Positions 1 to 41,061 of a stretch of DNA of 41,061 nt are shown here, in pieces. The DNA is taken from assembly GCA_030747125.1 (NCBI GenBank), contig JASLLI010000004.1, positions 1 to 41,061 on the forward strand. The letters are read 5' to 3'. The first letter of the stretch is position 1; each line of letters starts with the position of its first letter. A model generated the notes under the pieces. The model ran no database searches. It saw only the letters and a program-made list of their open reading frames with translations, and had not been told where the DNA came from. Position numbers and translations under genes: made by a program. Origin of the DNA: Fidelibacterota bacterium. GTDB lineage: Bacteria; Fidelibacterota; Marinisomatia; SCGC-AAA003-L08; D37C17.

Positions 1-897
1 GATGGGGGTTCCTCCCCATAAAAAGTCACAACCCCAATTGGTAACTGCAACAGCACAGGTAAAGGGGGAAACGGCAGAGTCATCATCCTCGCAGGGAGGC
101 AGACCACCCAGATTTAACTCATAAGGAGTCATCACATCTCCTTGAATATCATTTATGACAAAGGTATAGGATTCTGCAACATCGGTTATTTCACATTCAG
201 AGGCGTCAAAATATTTAAAGGTAATGACATCTCCTTCGTCGTTACTGCGGATTTGCATCTCATAGAGAATGGTTCCTGCGTAAGGGCCAAAGGGGACATT
301 TAATTGAAGGGCGATACCACGAACTTCACCATTTTCAGCAAACCCTGCAAGAATATCACCTTCATCTCCCAATTGGTTACCATCTCCATCCAAAACAATG
401 GACGTCATGGTGGCAGTAAATTCATACCCTCCCGGCCAATCTACCCAATCCGGCTCATTATCGCAGCCGCTGCCAGTGACAGCAGTCAACTCATGGGGAG
501 TGACTACATCACCAATGATATCGTTTATGATAAATGTATAATTTTCGGAAATATTATAAATGGCATCTTCGGAGGCATCATAATACTGGAATGTGATATT
601 GTCACCTCCGGCATTTGACCGAATTTGCATTTCATACAGAATGGTTCCTGCGTAGGGGCCAAAGGGGACATTGAGTTGCAAAGCAATCCCTCGAACTTCG
701 CCGTCATCGGCAAATCCTGCTAATATATCGCCATCGTCTCCAAGCTGAACACCATCCAAGCGAACCACAGAGTTCATGGTGGCGGTAAACTCAAAACAAC
801 CGGGACAGTCTTCCCAGTCCGGCGGTTCAGCATATAAAATTTGGGTTAAAAAGAATAAGGATAGTATTGCAATAGCTTTACTTTTTACCAACTGCAT
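1..897 (-). CDS. Secreted tandem-repeat protein (partial, C-terminus off left edge)
   Basis: I do not recognise this family. The reading frame opens at an ATG at 897 behind a strong GGAGGAG ribosome binding site and stays open for 299 codons to the window edge. Residues 1-23 form a signal peptide (MQLVKSKAIAILSLFFLTQI, then LYA before the mature start). Two copies of a roughly 123-residue unit follow, at about 26-137 and 149-261. Each has a PDW start, then FTATM, an acidic GD(D/E)GD segment followed by ILAGFA, the shared core VPFGPYAGTILYEMQIRSN, DAS, and an NDI-GDV-TP-EL end. A Cys-bearing tail (residues 269-299) follows. The protein is probably exported. A type IX sorting tail could lie beyond the edge, by analogy with the protein at the right edge, but is not visible. 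It is transcribed divergently from gltA. The coding call is firm; the function is unknown. Confidence 0.85.
   Translation of the reverse strand, partial: MQLVKSKAIAILSLFFLTQILYAEPPDWEDCPGCFEFTATMNSVVRLDGVQLGDDGDILAGFADDGEVRGIALQLNVPFGPYAGTILYEMQIRSNAGGDNITFQYYDASEDAIYNISENYTFIINDIIGDVVTPHELTAVTGSGCDNEPDWVDWPGGYEFTATMTSIVLDGDGNQLGDEGDILAGFAENGEVRGIALQLNVPFGPYAGTILYEMQIRSNDEGDVITFKYFDASECEITDVAESYTFVINDIQGDVMTPYELNLGGLPPCEDDDSAVSPFTCAVAVTNWGCDFLWGGTPI
115..453 (-). repeat. Second copy of the ~123-residue repeat unit
   Basis: This encodes residues about 149-261 of the left-edge secreted protein. It lies 123-124 codons downstream of the first copy. The FGPYAGTILYEMQIRSN core is identical in both copies, and two one- or two-residue differences lie in the acidic loops. 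Confidence 0.85.
487..819 (-). repeat. First copy of the ~123-residue repeat unit
   Basis: This encodes residues about 26-137 of the left-edge secreted protein. It matches the second copy over its whole length at the protein level, with the conserved core at residues 78-95 nearly identical even in DNA (around 640-705). Confidence 0.85.
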
Positions 898-925
898 ACG
901 AAAATTTCTCCTCCATTTCAATGTA

Positions 926-1199: not shown

Positions 1200-2471
1200 A
1201 TGGATAAAGCACAGCTGATTATTGACGGAAAAACTCTTGACCTGCCCATTATTACGGGGTCTGAAAATGAAAAAGGAATTGATGTTACACAACTCCGCCC
1301 CACCACCAATTTTATTACTTATGACCCCTCTTACGGGAATACAGGTTCCTGCATAAGTGATATTACCTATATTAACGGAGAAGAAGGAATCCTCCGATAC
1401 CGTGGATATCCCATTGAGCAGTTAGCAGATAATTCCAGTTTTGTTGAAGTGATTTACCTTCTGTTATATGGTGAACTTCCTAATAAGGAAGAATATGATC
1501 AATTTAATAAGGACCTTACCTATCACACCTTAATTCATGAAGATATGAAGCGGTTTTTCGACGGATACCCAATGAATGCTCATCCTATGGGTGTGCTGGC
1601 ATCTACGGTTGCGGCTCTTTCTACTTTTTATCCTGCCCGGGTGGACGGTGATATTGAGCTGAATATTATCAGAATTCTTGCCAAAGTAAAAACCTTGGCT
1701 GCATTTGCATATAAAAAATCAATTGGACAGCCACTTATTTACCCAAAGAATGACTTAGGGTATGAAGAAAACTTTCTACACATGATGTTCGCCGTTCCCT
1801 CTGAGGAATTTACCATTGACCCTGTTATGGCAGAAGCGCTGCGACTTCTGCTGATATTACATGCTGACCATGAACAAAACTGTTCTACCTCCACAGTTCG
1901 AATGGTGGGTAGCAGCAGGGCAAATTTGTTTATTTCCATTGCCGCAGGAATTGGTGCTCTCTGGGGTGCACTTCATGGTGGTGCAAATCAGCGTGTGATT
2001 GAAATGCTGCGTATGATTCATTCCGATGGGGATAACTATCAAAAATATATTGATTTGGCTAAGGACAAAAATTCAAATTTCAAATTGATGGGATTTGGCC
2101 ATCGGGTATATAAGAATTTTGATCCCCGTGCTAAAATTTTAAAACGCTCTGCAGATACCCTCCTCAATAAAATGGGCATTAACGATCCTTTGCTGAATAT
2201 TGCTCAGGAGCTTGAAAAGGTGGCATTGAAAGATGAGTTTTTTGTTGCACGAAATTTATATCCCAATGTGGATTTTTACTCTGGTATCATTTATCGTGCC
2301 TTGGGAATTCCCACCAAAATGTTTACAGTCATGTTTGCCTTGGGAAGACTCCCTGGCTGGATCGCCCAATGGAAAGAAATGCGCAATGCTGAAGTCCCCA
2401 GAATATACCGACCCAGACAAATTTACACCGGCGCAACCAAACGGGATTTTATCCCAATGAAAAAGCGCTAA
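1200..2471 (+). CDS. gltA: Citrate synthase
   Basis: Condenses acetyl-CoA with oxaloacetate to citrate, the entry step of the TCA cycle, in the cytoplasm. The 423 residues match the length of the hexameric bacterial type (about 427). Active-site residues are visible: His259 in GALHGGAN, His301 in GFGHRVYKNFDPRA, and Asp358 in PNVDFYSG. The HADHEQNCSTSTVR block at 221-234 is typical of proteobacterial-style GltA. The start is supported by AGGAAA a few bases before the ATG. Malate dehydrogenase follows 39 bases downstream and presumably shares the transcript. The upstream region carries a perfect CRP-type site, suggesting catabolite-type control. Confidence 0.97.
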   Translation: MDKAQLIIDGKTLDLPIITGSENEKGIDVTQLRPTTNFITYDPSYGNTGSCISDITYINGEEGILRYRGYPIEQLADNSSFVEVIYLLLYGELPNKEEYDQFNKDLTYHTLIHEDMKRFFDGYPMNAHPMGVLASTVAALSTFYPARVDGDIELNIIRILAKVKTLAAFAYKKSIGQPLIYPKNDLGYEENFLHMMFAVPSEEFTIDPVMAEALRLLLILHADHEQNCSTSTVRMVGSSRANLFISIAAGIGALWGALHGGANQRVIEMLRMIHSDGDNYQKYIDLAKDKNSNFKLMGFGHRVYKNFDPRAKILKRSADTLLNKMGINDPLLNIAQELEKVALKDEFFVARNLYPNVDFYSGIIYRALGIPTKMFTVMFALGRLPGWIAQWKEMRNAEVPRIYRPRQIYTGATKRDFIPMKKR

Positions 2472-2510
2472 TCTATTCTCCAATAAAATAATAATTTAAG
2501 GAAATACTCC

Positions 2511-3446
2511 ATGGCTCGAAAAAAAATTGCCCTAATTGGCGGAGGTCAGATTGGCGGCAATCTGGCATTATTGGCAACACAGAAAGAATTGGGAGATGTG
2601 GTTATTTATGACATCCCACAGGCTGAAGGTATGACGAAGGGAAAAGCCCTGGATATTATGCAACTTCGTCCTCATGACGGCTATGATGCACATCTGGAAG
2701 GTAGCAGCAATCCGGAAGATTTGCAGGATGCTGATGTAGTCATTATCACTGCAGGAGTTCCACGAAAGCCGGGAATGAATCGGGAAGATCTGCTGGAGAT
2801 CAATATTAAGATTATTACAGATGTGGCTCAAAATGTGAAGAAGTATGCTCCCAATGCTTTCGTTATTGTTGTTTCCAACCCTCTGGATGCTATCGTTTAT
2901 TCCTTTTATAAAGCATCAGGATTTCCAAAAAACAAAGTTGCAGGAATGGCAGGTGCTTTAGACAGTGGGCGCTTCAGGACCTTTCTTGCCATGGAAACCG
3001 GTTATTCTGCACAAGATGTAAACTGCATGGTTTTGGGTGGGCATGGAGATACCATGGTTCCTATCACCCGGTTAGCAACAATAGGGGGAATTCCTGCCGA
3101 GGAGTTAATCCCAAGGGACAGATTGGATGCCATTGTAGATAGAGTTCGTTTTGCCGGTGGCGAAATTGTCAAACTCTTTGGAAATGGTTCTGCCTATTAT
3201 GCTCCTGCAGCTTCAGCAATTGAAATGGCTGAAGCTTATCTATTGGACAAAAAACGGGTTATCCCCTCTGCTGCTCTCTGTGAAGGCGAATTCGGTATTG
3301 ATGGATATTTTATTGGTGTTCCGACAGTCATTGGTAGTGGGGGGGTTGAAAAAATTCTTGAATTCAATCTCCTCCCTGAAGAACAGGAAATGCTGGACAG
3401 CACTTTGGATGCAGTAAAAAAAACTGTCTTAGAGACTAAACTGTAA
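2511..3446 (+). CDS. mdh: Malate dehydrogenase, NAD-dependent (LDH-like type)
   Basis: Interconverts malate and oxaloacetate, supplying the substrate of the citrate synthase encoded just upstream. The 311 residues begin with the Rossmann motif GGGQIGG (10-16). Asp34 ends the second strand, as expected for NAD rather than NADP. Catalytic and substrate residues are Arg85 and Arg91 on the mobile loop, Asp151, Arg154, and His178 in LGGHGDTMVP. It belongs to the tetrameric lactate/malate dehydrogenase group common in FCB bacteria. An AAGGAAA element precedes the ATG. The inositol-phosphatase gene begins 13 bases after the stop, so the three genes probably form one operon. Confidence 0.96.
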   Translation: MARKKIALIGGGQIGGNLALLATQKELGDVVIYDIPQAEGMTKGKALDIMQLRPHDGYDAHLEGSSNPEDLQDADVVIITAGVPRKPGMNREDLLEINIKIITDVAQNVKKYAPNAFVIVVSNPLDAIVYSFYKASGFPKNKVAGMAGALDSGRFRTFLAMETGYSAQDVNCMVLGGHGDTMVPITRLATIGGIPAEELIPRDRLDAIVDRVRFAGGEIVKLFGNGSAYYAPAASAIEMAEAYLLDKKRVIPSAALCEGEFGIDGYFIGVPTVIGSGGVEKILEFNLLPEEQEMLDSTLDAVKKTVLETKL

Positions 3447-3459
3447 CCCGCTTCTTACA

Positions 3460-4257
3460 ATGAATCCTGATTTTCAGGAAAAACTCCTCCGCTTCACCCT
3501 GCAGACTGCCAGAGAAGCCGGTACTATTCTCATGTCTCATTATGGGAATCTACAAAAAATAAAGCAAAAATCATCTGCCATTGATTTGGTGACAGCCGCA
3601 GATGTAGATTCAGAAAAGTATATCGTGAATGAAATTCAAAGTTGTTACCCTGCCCATGATATCTTGACTGAAGAAACCCCTGTTGAAAGCCAGAATTCAG
3701 ATTTTTTGTGGGTGATTGATCCTTTAGATGGTACCACAAATTTTGTACATCAACTTCCTATTTTTGCAGTCTCCATTGGTCTGCAATACTTAGGGAAAAC
3801 CATTGTGGGTGTGGTCTTTAATCCCGCCGTTGATAAACTATTTCACGCCTCCTCAGGCTTCGGATCATTTCTAAATAATAAACCAATTCATTCTTCTTCT
3901 ACTATTACTTTAAGTGATAGCCTATTAGTTACTGGTTTTCCATATACTCATGATAATTACTGGAATCATGGTTTTACCCTGTTCAAGGATATTTACAGTA
4001 AGACTAGAGGGGTGCGAAGATTAGGCGCAGCAGCCTTGGATTTCTGTTTTACTGCTATGGGTAGATTTGATGGATATTGGGAGTTCGGACTGCAACCCTG
4101 GGATATCTGCGCCGGTGCGTTGATACTGCAGGAAGCAGGTGGAAAAGTCACAGATTGGGATGGCTCTGAATTCCCCTTTTCAGGAGACCGTATTTTAGCC
4201 ACTAACGGAGAGATTCATAGAGAATTAGAAGCCGTTTTATCCCGGAAAAAGACTTAA
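3460..4257 (+). CDS. suhB: Inositol monophosphatase family protein (SuhB-like)
   Basis: This is a Mg-dependent phosphatase of the inositol monophosphatase superfamily. The metal-binding signature is complete: Glu71 (LTEET), then WVIDPLDGTTNF at 84-95 with Asp87 and Asp90, and the second motif WDICAGALILQEAGG with Asp214. At 265 residues it has the normal family length. Family members act on myo-inositol-1-phosphate or other sugar phosphates, and in E. coli SuhB also binds the transcription antitermination complex; the substrate here cannot be read from sequence. There is no clear Shine-Dalgarno before the ATG, so translation may depend on the upstream mdh. Its stop overlaps that of convergent uvrC in one TTAA. 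Confidence 0.9.
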   Translation: MNPDFQEKLLRFTLQTAREAGTILMSHYGNLQKIKQKSSAIDLVTAADVDSEKYIVNEIQSCYPAHDILTEETPVESQNSDFLWVIDPLDGTTNFVHQLPIFAVSIGLQYLGKTIVGVVFNPAVDKLFHASSGFGSFLNNKPIHSSSTITLSDSLLVTGFPYTHDNYWNHGFTLFKDIYSKTRGVRRLGAAALDFCFTAMGRFDGYWEFGLQPWDICAGALILQEAGGKVTDWDGSEFPFSGDRILATNGEIHRELEAVLSRKKT

Positions 4258-6083
4258 CCTTCTTTCACCTCAGCCAAAATTTTTTCACATAAATTTAAAG
4301 GGAATCCGGTTTTATCCCGGATTCCCTGTATATCTGCAGATTTCATTTCTTCTATTGATTTAAAAGACTTCCATAATTTTTGAGTGCGCTTCGCCCCCAT
4401 ACCCTTTATACCTGAGAAGATAGACTTAGTCATTTCTTTTTCCCTGGTACTGCGATGAAATGAAATGGCGAAGCGGTGTACTTCATCACGAATTGCCCTG
4501 AGTAAATGCAGACCGGCAGAAGTCTTTGAAATATTTTGCGCTGCTTTCATTCCCGGTTTAAACACTTCCTCCAGCCTTTTTGCCAGGCCGATAACAGATA
4601 GGTATCCTAAACCTAAGGCATCTAAAGCTGACTTTGCCGCTGATAACTGCCCTTTACCTCCATCAATAAGAATTAGATCAGGCAGGGGATTTTTCTCCTT
4701 CAATTGGCGGGAATAGCGTCGGTGCACAACTTCACGCATAGAAGCAAAATCATCAATGCCTATCACTGATTTAATATGAAACTTTCTGTACTCTGATTTT
4801 TTGGGCTTTCCATCAACAAAGCATACCATACCAGCAACAGGATTACTTCCATGAATATTGGAATTATCAAAGGCTTCAATACGCCGCGGTGGTACTTCCA
4901 TTCCTAAAACCTCCTGAAGCTGCAAGACGGGTTTGTTCAGCAGTTCTTTTCGTTTCGCCTGTTTTAACTTCAGCTCTCCCAAAAGCAAATCTGCGTTTCT
5001 CTTAGAAATTTCCACTAATTTCCGTTTTTCGCCCTTTTGAGGAACCAACAGTTTAACTTTCTTCTTCCCTGATTTAGAAAGCCAGGTTTCAATGTTCAGA
5101 GTATCAGCAGGAGGAATTTCCAATAATACTTCTTTGGGATAGTCCATCGTGGATGCATAATACTGTAACAAAAATTGCTCGATTTTCTTAGTGTCAGCTT
5201 CAGCGTCATGAAGCTTTAATATAAATTTTTCTCTACCCATCATGTGACCATTACGGATGCGCATTACAAGCCCAATACCCAACCTGTTTTCAGATGAGAC
5301 TGTAATTACATCCCTGTCCATGAAATCCTGGCTGATTTTTTTCTGTTTTTTCATGAATTGGGTGACTGCATGTAGTTGATCCCGGTAATGGGCTGCATCT
5401 TCAAACTGAAGGTCTGTCGAAGCTTTTTCCATTTCCTGCATCAGATGCTGTTGAATGTCTTTATTTCTTCCCTTTAGAAACTGGATAATCTGTAATATCA
5501 TTTTGGAATAATTCTCCTCAGATACCAACCCTTCACAAGGGCCTTCACATCGTTTGATATGATAGTCCAGACAGACTTTAATTTTTCCTTCTTTAATGGT
5601 ATTTTCATCAATGAAATAAGTACAGGTGCGCAAAGGAAATATTTTATGCAATACCCGTAATATTTCACGGAGATAACCTGCATCCGTAAAGGGGCCAAAA
5701 TAATTGTGGTCATCCTTGCTGAGGTTTTTCTGGCGAATGATTTCCACTCTGGGATACGGCTCATTGGTGATCCGGATATAGGGAAAAGTTTTATCATCCT
5801 TTAAAAAAACATTATACCGTGGTTTATGCTCTTTGATAAGGTTGGCTTCAGTTAACAGTGCTTCCACTTCTGATCTGACCACCATCCATTCAAAGTTGGC
5901 AATTTGTTTAACCAATACCTGAGTTTTAGCATCCTTACTTTCAGGTTTTGTAAAGTAGGACCGCACCCGATTCCGCAGGATTTTTGCCTTCCCGATATAA
6001 ATGATATTACCTTCAATATCATGAAAAAAATACACACCGGGAGATTTTGGAACTTGTGACAGTTTCTGTTTTAGTTCCTTCAA
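4254..6083 (-). CDS. uvrC: Excinuclease ABC subunit C
   Basis: This is the incision nuclease of nucleotide excision repair, acting with UvrA and UvrB on damaged DNA. The 609 residues show the full architecture. A GIY-YIG domain sits at the N-terminus (GVY at 16-18, YIG at 29-31, Arg39 nearby) for the 3' cut. A UVR motif for UvrB binding lies around 205-240. An RNase H-like 5' nuclease follows (EAFDNSNIHG and LILIDGGKGQLSAA), with a tandem helix-hairpin-helix end (GIKGMGAKRTQKLW). The start is TTG. It puts 13 residues before SPGVY, as in other UvrC proteins, and begins immediately after the stop of the upstream small gene in the same frame. Confidence 0.95.
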   Translation of the reverse strand: MKELKQKLSQVPKSPGVYFFHDIEGNIIYIGKAKILRNRVRSYFTKPESKDAKTQVLVKQIANFEWMVVRSEVEALLTEANLIKEHKPRYNVFLKDDKTFPYIRITNEPYPRVEIIRQKNLSKDDHNYFGPFTDAGYLREILRVLHKIFPLRTCTYFIDENTIKEGKIKVCLDYHIKRCEGPCEGLVSEENYSKMILQIIQFLKGRNKDIQQHLMQEMEKASTDLQFEDAAHYRDQLHAVTQFMKKQKKISQDFMDRDVITVSSENRLGIGLVMRIRNGHMMGREKFILKLHDAEADTKKIEQFLLQYYASTMDYPKEVLLEIPPADTLNIETWLSKSGKKKVKLLVPQKGEKRKLVEISKRNADLLLGELKLKQAKRKELLNKPVLQLQEVLGMEVPPRRIEAFDNSNIHGSNPVAGMVCFVDGKPKKSEYRKFHIKSVIGIDDFASMREVVHRRYSRQLKEKNPLPDLILIDGGKGQLSAAKSALDALGLGYLSVIGLAKRLEEVFKPGMKAAQNISKTSAGLHLLRAIRDEVHRFAISFHRSTREKEMTKSIFSGIKGMGAKRTQKLWKSFKSIEEMKSADIQGIRDKTGFPLNLCEKILAEVKEG

Positions 6084-6554
6084 TTATAATCCCAGCATTT
6101 TCAGGGTGAGAACAACTCCAACAACAGGCAGCAACATGACCCAAATTGAAGGTTTAGGGCGATAGTATATAAAATGGATATCTTGTAGTGCTAACTTTTT
6201 TTGCTGTTTGGGTTGGGGTGCAAAACCGGGAGGCTCATTAAAATAATTTCCCATGGCACTGGTAGAGGGTGCTTTCTGCCATTGAAAGGGACTATACCTC
6301 AGCAATTCTACTACAAGAGAATCGCCCTGAATGCGAATAATTTCCTGAATATCAAGGAAAGTTCCATCAGAGAGTTCGAAAAATGACTGCGAGGAGTTTT
6401 TATGGATAAATTGGAGAGTATCATTCATTTCAGGTTTGTTCAAATTCTGACAATCAATAATTGTAAATTCAATTTGAACCTGTGCCAGAGAAAATTCGGA
6501 TACAAATAAAAATGTCGTTAAAGGAATGAGATTGTTTAAAACTTTATAAAACAT
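6084..6554 (-). CDS. Uncharacterised small membrane-anchored envelope protein
   Basis: I do not recognise this 156-residue protein. Residues 1-24 look like a signal peptide ending in a small residue (FSLAQ). The middle holds beta-rich polar sequence. Residues about 136-156 (IWVMLLPVVGVVLTLKMLGL) form a C-terminal membrane helix, which suggests a periplasmic domain tethered to the inner membrane. A Pro-rich stretch (NEPPGFAPQPKQ) lies before the helix. The stop codon is directly followed by the TTG start of uvrC, so the two genes are almost certainly co-transcribed, though no functional link is evident. The divergent HIRAN gene starts 139 bases away. Confidence 0.7.
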   Translation of the reverse strand: MFYKVLNNLIPLTTFLFVSEFSLAQVQIEFTIIDCQNLNKPEMNDTLQFIHKNSSQSFFELSDGTFLDIQEIIRIQGDSLVVELLRYSPFQWQKAPSTSAMGNYFNEPPGFAPQPKQQKKLALQDIHFIYYRPKPSIWVMLLPVVGVVLTLKMLGL

Positions 6555-39067: not shown

Positions 39068-39667
39068 TTAATTACAAATCTCTATTTTCCCATTTGAAAT
39101 TTCTCTTAAGGAGTTTAACATGCCGCATTTACTTTGATTATTCACTTCCACTTGAAGTTTTATAGACTCACCAAAGCCGGAGGTAATGATTTCTGCTTTG
39201 AACTTTTTCAAGACTGCCTCTACCTTCCCCTGTAGAACATAGTTGAAATGTAGAGTAACTTTCTCAGTCTTAATCCATGGCAATTTTTTTCCTCCGGTGA
39301 CGGCATCTTCAGCAGCAGCACCATAGGCATTTATGAGACCGGGAATACCTAATTTACTGCCTCCGTAAAATCGCAGTACAAAAATACAAATATTCACCAG
39401 CTCATGTCTTTTTAATACATTGAGAATGGGCAGTCCTGCAGAACCTTTTGGTTCACCGGCATCTGTAGAAAATTCATCAAGTCTGGAAGCATGGTAAATT
39501 CGATATGCATAACAGTAATGGCTGGATTCAGGGAAGTTTTCTTTCAGATGAGTTAATTCTGCTTTCACCTCATCAAGAGTATTAGCAGGATATGCCCGAG
39601 CAGAAAACAAAGATCCCTTTTCAGAATATTCCCCTTTTGAAATGCCGGACAAATAAAAATCAGGCAT
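39068..39667 (-). CDS. yigZ: YigZ/IMPACT-family protein
   Basis: A member of the UPF0029/IMPACT family; eukaryotic IMPACT affects translation control, and bacterial members have been linked to nucleic-acid or ribosome binding without a settled role. The diagnostic run is clear: KGSLFSARAYP, HYCYAYRIY, then DAGEPKGSAGLPILNVLKRHELVNICIFVLRFYGGSKLGIPGLINAYGAAAEDAV (about 77-131), followed by a small C-terminal ferredoxin-like domain. Length is 199 residues. The ATG overlaps the stop of the large secreted protein (TAATG), so the two are read from one transcript. Confidence 0.9.
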   Translation of the reverse strand: MPDFYLSGISKGEYSEKGSLFSARAYPANTLDEVKAELTHLKENFPESSHYCYAYRIYHASRLDEFSTDAGEPKGSAGLPILNVLKRHELVNICIFVLRFYGGSKLGIPGLINAYGAAAEDAVTGGKKLPWIKTEKVTLHFNYVLQGKVEAVLKKFKAEIITSGFGESIKLQVEVNNQSKCGMLNSLREISNGKIEICN

Positions 39668-41061
39668 TATTTTCTCAGGGTTAGTTTTATGGATCCTGCT
39701 TTTTTATTTGAAGGACTGAGAGTAATAAAATAAATTCCCGTTGACAGAGAGCCAGAAAGGAATGGTGCAATATTTTGTCTGTGCCAACCTTTCTTGTCAT
39801 AAGCTAATTTTTGTGAAAGGATTTTTCTTCCCCTCACATCCACCAATGATAACTCAGGCGGAATACCATCCCCATTAAGGGAATAAATGATATGTAAGTC
39901 GCTGCTCCAGTCATAAGGATTTGGATAGACTGAAATTAGGGTATTTTCTGTAACTGATATTACCTCAGGCCATGACAACACTTGCACTGCTTCTACCTTA
40001 CCGGACGCTCCCTCATCATTCATTGCTATTACAGAATATTGATAGTAATTACTGCCAATGATGTTAATGTCTAACCAGGTGGTATCTGCCGTTGTTTGGA
40101 TTAGTTCTTCATTTCTGAATAATTGATAGTAGAGGGAATCTCCCGGCCCCTTGGATGTATTCCAGATAACGGAAATAGAATCTTGCATAGGAGTGGCAAA
40201 AATATTCCCAGGTTGTGCAGGTTGATGAATGGGATAATATACTTCAACTGTCTCCGTAGGAAGGGATTCCCCAATTTCATTAGCACATTTTACAAAGAAA
40301 TAGTAGTTTTGATAAGGAACATAATCTGATTCCACATTGATTAAGGTGGTGTCTGTTGTCCCGACTTTTAATGTATCTATATCATCCACCTGATAAATAT
40401 GATAAATAAGGGAATCCCCCGGACCCGGAGAAGCTTTCCAGGTAAGAGAAAATGTATGATATGATGCTTCTATCTTCAGATTTGAGGGCGGCAGAGGCGG
40501 CAGGCTGTCTGTGGGATAATAGTTGAGATTAAACTGTACCAGATTTTTAGAATTCTTCTTACCGATGATAAAATGAAGATAGTCATTTTCATAGAGACCT
40601 AAATAAGGTTGCAGTGTATCATGAAAACTGTGATTCCCTGATGGTGACACTTGAGCCAGCCTTAGATAATAATCATCCGTACTATGTGATATTTCCAGAA
40701 GAACGGGATCATCCATACGCAAGGATTGAATCGCTGCAGCTTTTTCTGATATATTTTTATCAAACTCAAAACTTGAATTAATCAGCACCGGCTGCGTGTC
40801 TATGGGCTTTACCAATGCCTGATCAATGTAATAATAATAGGGATTATCCATGGTGTCAAAGAGACTATTGTAGGTATTTCTGGCAACGAAATCCGTCCAT
40901 ACTTCTGAAAAGTCCCATTGGTAGTTATTCTCAAGAATATAAAATGCTGCCCCTACTACCGTAGTGTTATAATCCCGAAAGCGTTCCCAGATTTCCCGCA
41001 TGATGGTGGAATTCTTCGCATCTTCTTTTCCCTTAGGGTCAATAAAGGAACTGAGATAATG
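39667..41061 (-). CDS. Secreted multidomain protein with FN3 repeats and type IX sorting tail (partial, N-terminus off right edge)
   Basis: The frame is open to the window edge, so the ATG at 41001 is not the start; 464 residues are visible. The first about 85 residues (HYLSSFIDPKGKED, MREIWERF, WDFSEVWTDFVARNTYN) resemble the end of a putative metalloprotease catalytic domain of the MXAN_6640 type, but the zinc motif would lie beyond the edge. Two fibronectin type III domains follow (about 185-277 and 278-365), each with PGPGDSL- or KGPGDSLYY-like strands. The last about 95 residues (ISVYPNPYDWSSDLHIIYSL, LVDVRGRKI, STGIYFITL) are a type A C-terminal sorting domain for the type IX secretion system. 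The product is probably surface-attached or released. Confidence 0.85.
   Translation of the reverse strand, partial: HYLSSFIDPKGKEDAKNSTIMREIWERFRDYNTTVVGAAFYILENNYQWDFSEVWTDFVARNTYNSLFDTMDNPYYYYIDQALVKPIDTQPVLINSSFEFDKNISEKAAAIQSLRMDDPVLLEISHSTDDYYLRLAQVSPSGNHSFHDTLQPYLGLYENDYLHFIIGKKNSKNLVQFNLNYYPTDSLPPLPPSNLKIEASYHTFSLTWKASPGPGDSLIYHIYQVDDIDTLKVGTTDTTLINVESDYVPYQNYYFFVKCANEIGESLPTETVEVYYPIHQPAQPGNIFATPMQDSISVIWNTSKGPGDSLYYQLFRNEELIQTTADTTWLDINIIGSNYYQYSVIAMNDEGASGKVEAVQVLSWPEVISVTENTLISVYPNPYDWSSDLHIIYSLNGDGIPPELSLVDVRGRKILSQKLAYDKKGWHRQNIAPFLSGSLSTGIYFITLSPSNKKAGSIKLTLRK

Follow-up and report, generated by a model that had tools for sequence, protein, structure and literature searches.

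A widespread, uncatalogued beta-sandwich module of type IX secretion cargo in Neomarinimicrobiota (SAR406), with relatives in two putative phage fibres

The window analysed here, a stretch of 41,061 nucleotides equal to the entire contig C52 (one of 107 in a genome of 1.7 Mb), begins inside a gene for a protein built of repeated units, and the question that this locus raises is what the units are and what they do for the cell that carries them. The 5' part of the gene is present (Table 1). Its product opens with a putative signal peptide, and the preliminary description of a secreted repeat protein agrees with our results in that the repeat is real and the protein, by its signal-like N-terminus, is probably secreted. 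At the opposite end the contig also interrupts a gene (39667-41061, minus strand) with the tail of the type IX secretion system (T9SS; 39700-39930), such that breaks inside secreted-protein genes are found at both ends; contig C30 of the same genome is broken likewise.

Table 1. Positions of the features discussed in the text. Plain positions are those of the window; L079 and L083 are the two phage loci.
Feature	Position	Strand	Basis or remark
5' part of gene, P0001, 299 residues	1..897	-	ATG at 895-897; C-terminus lost at contig end, position 1
GGAGGAG, Shine-Dalgarno-like, 10 bases upstream of ATG	908..914	-	sequence
Signal-peptide-like N-terminus, residues 1-23 (KSK, hydrophobic run, then ILYA end)	829..897	-	sequence, by eye
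Unit 1, residues 25-143, predicted beta-sandwich	469..825	-	alignment and structure model
Unit 2, residues 147-266, 74% identical to unit 1	100..459	-	alignment
19-residue core VPFGPYAGTILYEMQIRSN in unit 1	613..669	-	unit comparison
Core VPFGPYAGTILYEMQIRSN in unit 2	241..297	-	unit comparison
Cys-rich module, start only, residues 269-299	1..93	-	complete and doubled in ortholog
Phage unit	L079:5001-5351		near C-terminus of fibre-like protein
Phage unit	L083:6001-6348		near C-terminus of fibre-like protein
GDEIAIFDLNG-type domain	L083 fibre, ORF 1717-6507		between Ig-like part and unit

The two units, each about 119 residues long, recur every 122 residues. Over 113 aligned residues they share 74% identity (85 of 118 in a global alignment), and their DNA is 68% identical. 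A 19-residue core had been reported to be nearly identical in the repeated units, and indeed it lies within a run of 30 identical residues; when the positions of the matches were shuffled, a run of at least 30 arose in 0.015% of 20,000 trials. The tandem repeat is real and not a product of chance. The core does not represent a recent copy of a DNA block, because 7 of its 19 codons differ synonymously; in the flanks, 22 of 39 and 16 of 27 codons for identical residues do so. We also weighed gene conversion of the core: its first ten codons differ at one synonymous site and its last nine at six. The genome holds four copies of the unit, the two of the window and two more on contig C30, in a frame of 812 residues.

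That the unit resembles no known domain was an earlier claim that the database searches uphold. With P0001, neither Pfam nor NCBIfam gave a hit above cut-off and PDB sequences gave none that was credible, 18 units scanned against Pfam and NCBIfam yielded none above chance level, and the profile built from these 18 units matched no PDB sequence. Searches of an open-access library on Marinimicrobia, Neomarinimicrobiota or SAR406 with T9SS and sorting domains, on adhesion repeats and on the architecture of T9SS cargo brought up no recognisable paper on the domain. The family is nevertheless common in the phylum: P0001 matches 24 of 60 genomes at E <= 0.001 (its own included), and the unit profile matches 46 of 199 Neomarinimicrobiota genomes at E <= 1e-5, with more than 200 unit copies across these 46. 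Outside the phylum the matches were two Bacteroidota plasmid records (Flammeovirga and Aureibacter) among 72,556. A scan with a closer alignment (A2), which reached close relatives only, returned ten loci, all of Candidatus Neomarinimicrobiota. A cassette consisting of a unit, two GWNWISFN-type repeats, a second unit and a T9SS tail is common to the window's genome and Aureibacter (L006:2139-4577, minus strand; L081:4000-7524, plus strand); in Pfam, nothing scored above cut-off for the GWNW repeats of L006.

The preliminary description had read the strict conservation of the core as the mark of a functional or structural site, a view that the wider family does not support. Conservation was assessed on 108 distinct units out of 111 harvested, weak, short and X-containing units being left out. 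The mean entropy of the core columns (53-71) was 2.33 bits as compared to 2.32 bits elsewhere (16 versus 91 columns; Mann-Whitney p = 0.98), and the near-fixed positions, W4, Y/F11, F38, R45, G46, N71, F79, F98, G105 and P110, lie mostly outside the core. The inference of a functional core is unsupported since the core marks the subfamily of the window's genus; as judged from these alignments, it is a signature at the level of the genus that is no better conserved across the family than the rest of the unit. The GD-rich loop is likewise typical of the genus-level subfamily only: among the 108 units D30 is present in 47%, G32 in 29% and D33 in 73%; D83, like D33 a candidate calcium ligand, is found in 77%.

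Prediction of the structure of a single unit, which had been suggested as a check, gave a confident all-beta fold. The AlphaFold2 model of unit 1, computed from 18 sequences, has nine strands and no helix (pLDDT 94.4, pTM 0.87), and we regard the predicted beta-sandwich as well supported; a model of the tandem of two units, made from four sequences, reached a pLDDT of 32 and was not used. Foldseek listed 1459 PDB matches with E <= 10, none of which reached E <= 0.001. The best VIA-align score was Z = 6.6, in a list in which amylases bearing CBM20, teneurin, usher and immunoglobulin-like chains were mixed, and values of Z below 8 may mean only a common arrangement; the matches to teneurin, glucoamylase and antibodies were set aside as the common beta-sandwich arrangement. 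In the viral structure library (BFVD) one entry stands out, A0A0F7L4H0 of an uncultured marine virus (TMq 0.80, E 6.6e-7).

For the architecture of unit-bearing proteins we collected 28 unit-bearing ORFs from 15 regions, which were chosen for many or strong matches and are not a random sample; 23 of these ORFs carry a PNPF tail motif near their end, as found by regular expression, and the other five are cut by the end of the contig or locus. The interval between the end of a unit and the T9SS tail motif is 14-22 residues in 17 of the 23 tailed ORFs. Six unit-bearing proteins were scanned with Pfam: FlgD_ig or Por_Secre_tail scored above cut-off in five, and Ig-like or cadherin-like domains stand beside the units in two. 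The window's genome itself has 30 TIGR04183 matches, 29 of them over the cut-off. The link between the unit family and T9SS cargo is well supported, and the unit is a real, uncatalogued and widespread beta-sandwich module of such cargo, ordinary in kind.

What the contig end has removed can be gauged from a syntenic ortholog of 1775 aa in another genome (G005), in which the divergent neighbour, citrate synthase, is 87% identical. The ortholog runs from two strong units through Cys-rich modules and repeated DECGVCGG-type segments to one remote unit and a T9SS tail, which scores 29.9 bits with TIGR04183 (cut-off 23) and 23.7 bits with PF18962, below the cut-off of 27 for that model; scans with Pfam and NCBIfam found no catalytic domain in it. 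The expectation that more copies lie beyond the edge is partly right, because in the ortholog the two strong units are followed by the Cys-rich modules and then by one remote unit near the C-terminus; probably just this one distant copy is to be expected. We sought the contig with the missing C-terminal half through the gene downstream of the ortholog, which we take from its sequence to be pyruvate kinase, and this gene had no match in the window's genome. The Cys-rich module of which the window holds the start, complete in the ortholog (locus L035), has the six-cysteine pattern C-x11/12-C-x8-C-x12-C-x3-C-x2-C, and seven distinct copies occur in the fetched loci. We take its end to resemble that of a ShK-type domain; the second spacing differs and the two copies scanned in Pfam gave no match, and the name was dropped on both grounds.

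Based on these data we propose that the window gene codes for a large cell-surface protein with several domains, from a bacterium of Candidatus Neomarinimicrobiota (SAR406), and that the part seen here is its distal, N-terminal one. The protein would be exported by its signal peptide and then by the T9SS, the sorting tail residing in the missing C-terminal part. T9SS cargo is held at the surface by its C-terminus; with the protein anchored in this manner, the two units would come to lie at its outer, free end, and the window copy would be displayed on the surface. Each unit would fold on its own as a beta-sandwich module of about 110 residues, and two of them in tandem at the exposed tip of such a long protein may serve contact or adhesion. 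We consider this role the best single reading, with a probability of roughly one half, because no enzyme domain is recognised and because phages re-use the module near the end of a putative fibre; binding by the unit is what these features suggest. The reading is limited in that the structural matches of the model extend only to a general beta-sandwich arrangement (Z <= 6.6), and the location of a unit shortly before the tail motif in the majority of tailed ORFs counts against it, as this arrangement also suits a passive spacer.

The phage copies come from two IMG/VR contigs of 128.6 and 121.5 kb, derived from different metagenomes, each of which carries one unit near the C-terminus of a long fibre-like protein. 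Both long proteins contain GIGT-type repeats, which we take to be typical of fibres, and that of L079 has Ig-like and PKD domains in addition. FtsK-, primase-, SbcD- and SbcC-like genes lie beside the fibre gene on L079, and an exonuclease-like phage family is also among the neighbours. One could argue that the contigs are misclassified bacterial DNA and the phage link an artefact, as IMG/VR contigs can be misclassified and the fibre-like proteins have no PHROG match; yet two contigs from separate metagenomes share the arrangement with these FtsK-, primase-, SbcD-, SbcC- and exonuclease-like families, and each has a terminase-like match, over the cut-off in one of the two, and we hold an artefact to be very improbable. 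Nine genes downstream have identities of 82-90% between the two phages and a further two of 74% and 65%, whereas the fibre-like proteins are about 40-42% identical over long aligned parts and the unit segment 57%. Such fast divergence fits a receptor-binding protein, though it is no proof of one, and a fibre is what the phage protein appears to be.

The origin of the phage units is indicated by the tree of the 108 units, a short alignment with many weak forks. The phage pair falls inside a clade of 12 rows whose other ten all belong to the window's genus (100/99), and it groups with three units of one genome, G002 (98/91). A second uncatalogued domain, of the GDEIAIFDLNG type, adjoins the unit in both phage fibres; its relatives, up to 52% identical, occur in 23 of 40 related Neomarinimicrobiota genomes and in none of the six searched genomes of the window's genus. 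The host of the phages is not fixed to the window's genus because the second fibre domain is absent from these six genomes. Owing to the nesting in the unit tree and the distribution of the second domain, Neomarinimicrobiota are the most likely donor group, as far as sequence relationships tell, and the module seems to have passed from these bacteria to the two related marine phages, where it was placed near the C-terminus of the fibre-like protein, with the direction of transfer read from the nesting. None of 50,697 GenBank phages matched P0001. Viral sequences were covered by five pattern-based scans, of which a wider one starting from the FtsK neighbour returned just the same two contigs. 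A fuller proposal, which we put forward tentatively and at less than even odds, is that the unit is a contact module of the SAR406 surface captured by phages of that group, near the tip of the fibre that contacts the host and together with a second surface domain of SAR406 type.

The main rival to a contact role is a passive one, in which the unit, as a spacer or stalk, only keeps other parts of the protein away from the cell. The proteins are large and rich in repeated beta modules, an enzyme is not recognised in them, the unit adjoins the sorting tail in most tailed ORFs, and comparable modules have been described as a linker (BACON; PMC6949934) and as a spacer (DUF1735; PMC11216935). A membrane-proximal stalk, however, is not expected at the N-terminus, where the units stand in the window gene, the ortholog and several others, and in the phages the unit occurs once, towards the C-terminus of a fibre-like protein that diverges fast; we regard a spacer as rather unlikely. 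Some of the best structural alignments (Z 5-6.6) are to chains bearing CBM20 and CBM41, which could make the unit a putative carbohydrate-binding module functionally related to these starch-binding families. As the scores remain below 8, the chains are mixed with teneurin, usher and immunoglobulin-like ones, and no CBM model of Pfam matches P0001 or the units, we find such a function improbable. The idea that the acidic loops bind calcium and so stiffen the repeat, raised in the preliminary description, is compatible with the other readings and draws on the strong acidity of the units (20 and 23 D+E, 3 K+R each) and their GD-rich loops; it is nonetheless doubtful, as the GD pattern is not family-wide and no calcium-binding model in Pfam or NCBIfam matched P0001.

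SAR406 is an abundant uncultured phylum of the ocean, and its large surface proteins stay unannotated because the unit family has no entry in the copies of Pfam and NCBIfam that were searched, a gap that a unit profile would close. Surface proteins of this kind are unsurprising in themselves, and the capture by phages is the surprising part. If the module was indeed captured for contact, it would bind a receptor or a partner copy on uncultured SAR406 cells, and its phylogeny could link phages to SAR406 hosts. The phage copies offer a testable handle on the contact between SAR406 and its phages, where hosts are hard to assign.

How far, then, does the unit resemble systems already described? 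With T9SS type A cargo (TIGR04183, PF18962, FlgD_ig) the members of the family and the ortholog share the C-terminal tail; the unit itself is a separate module upstream of it, and in the window the gene breaks off ahead of any tail. To CBM20 and CBM41 the likeness is that of the general beta-sandwich arrangement, while a sequence match in Pfam is absent and the scores are too low to claim kinship. The uncharacterized viral protein A0A0F7L4H0 is a structural match over the whole length of the unit and, with 136 residues, is near the size of one unit; the identity is 18%. The closest parallel is BACON, which is described as an Ig-like linker in surface proteins of Bacteroides and also occurs in proteins of crAss-like phages thought to be tail-associated, where host binding is proposed but unproven and where one BACON ORF had a T9SS sorting domain (PMC6949934). 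The BACON profile was not among the Pfam families listed for P0001 (E <= 10) or the 18 units (E <= 1), and in fold the unit model is all-beta, with fold searches revealing no clear kin to set beside the Ig-like fold of BACON. The arrangement also differs, since crAssphage carries an array whereas the phages described here carry one copy nested in the clade of a single genus. By sequence the unit falls outside the BACON family, and the analogy would at most be one of manner: as in the BACON case (PMC6949934), a beta-sandwich that is repeated in the surface proteins of one bacterial group is also found in putative phage tail proteins.
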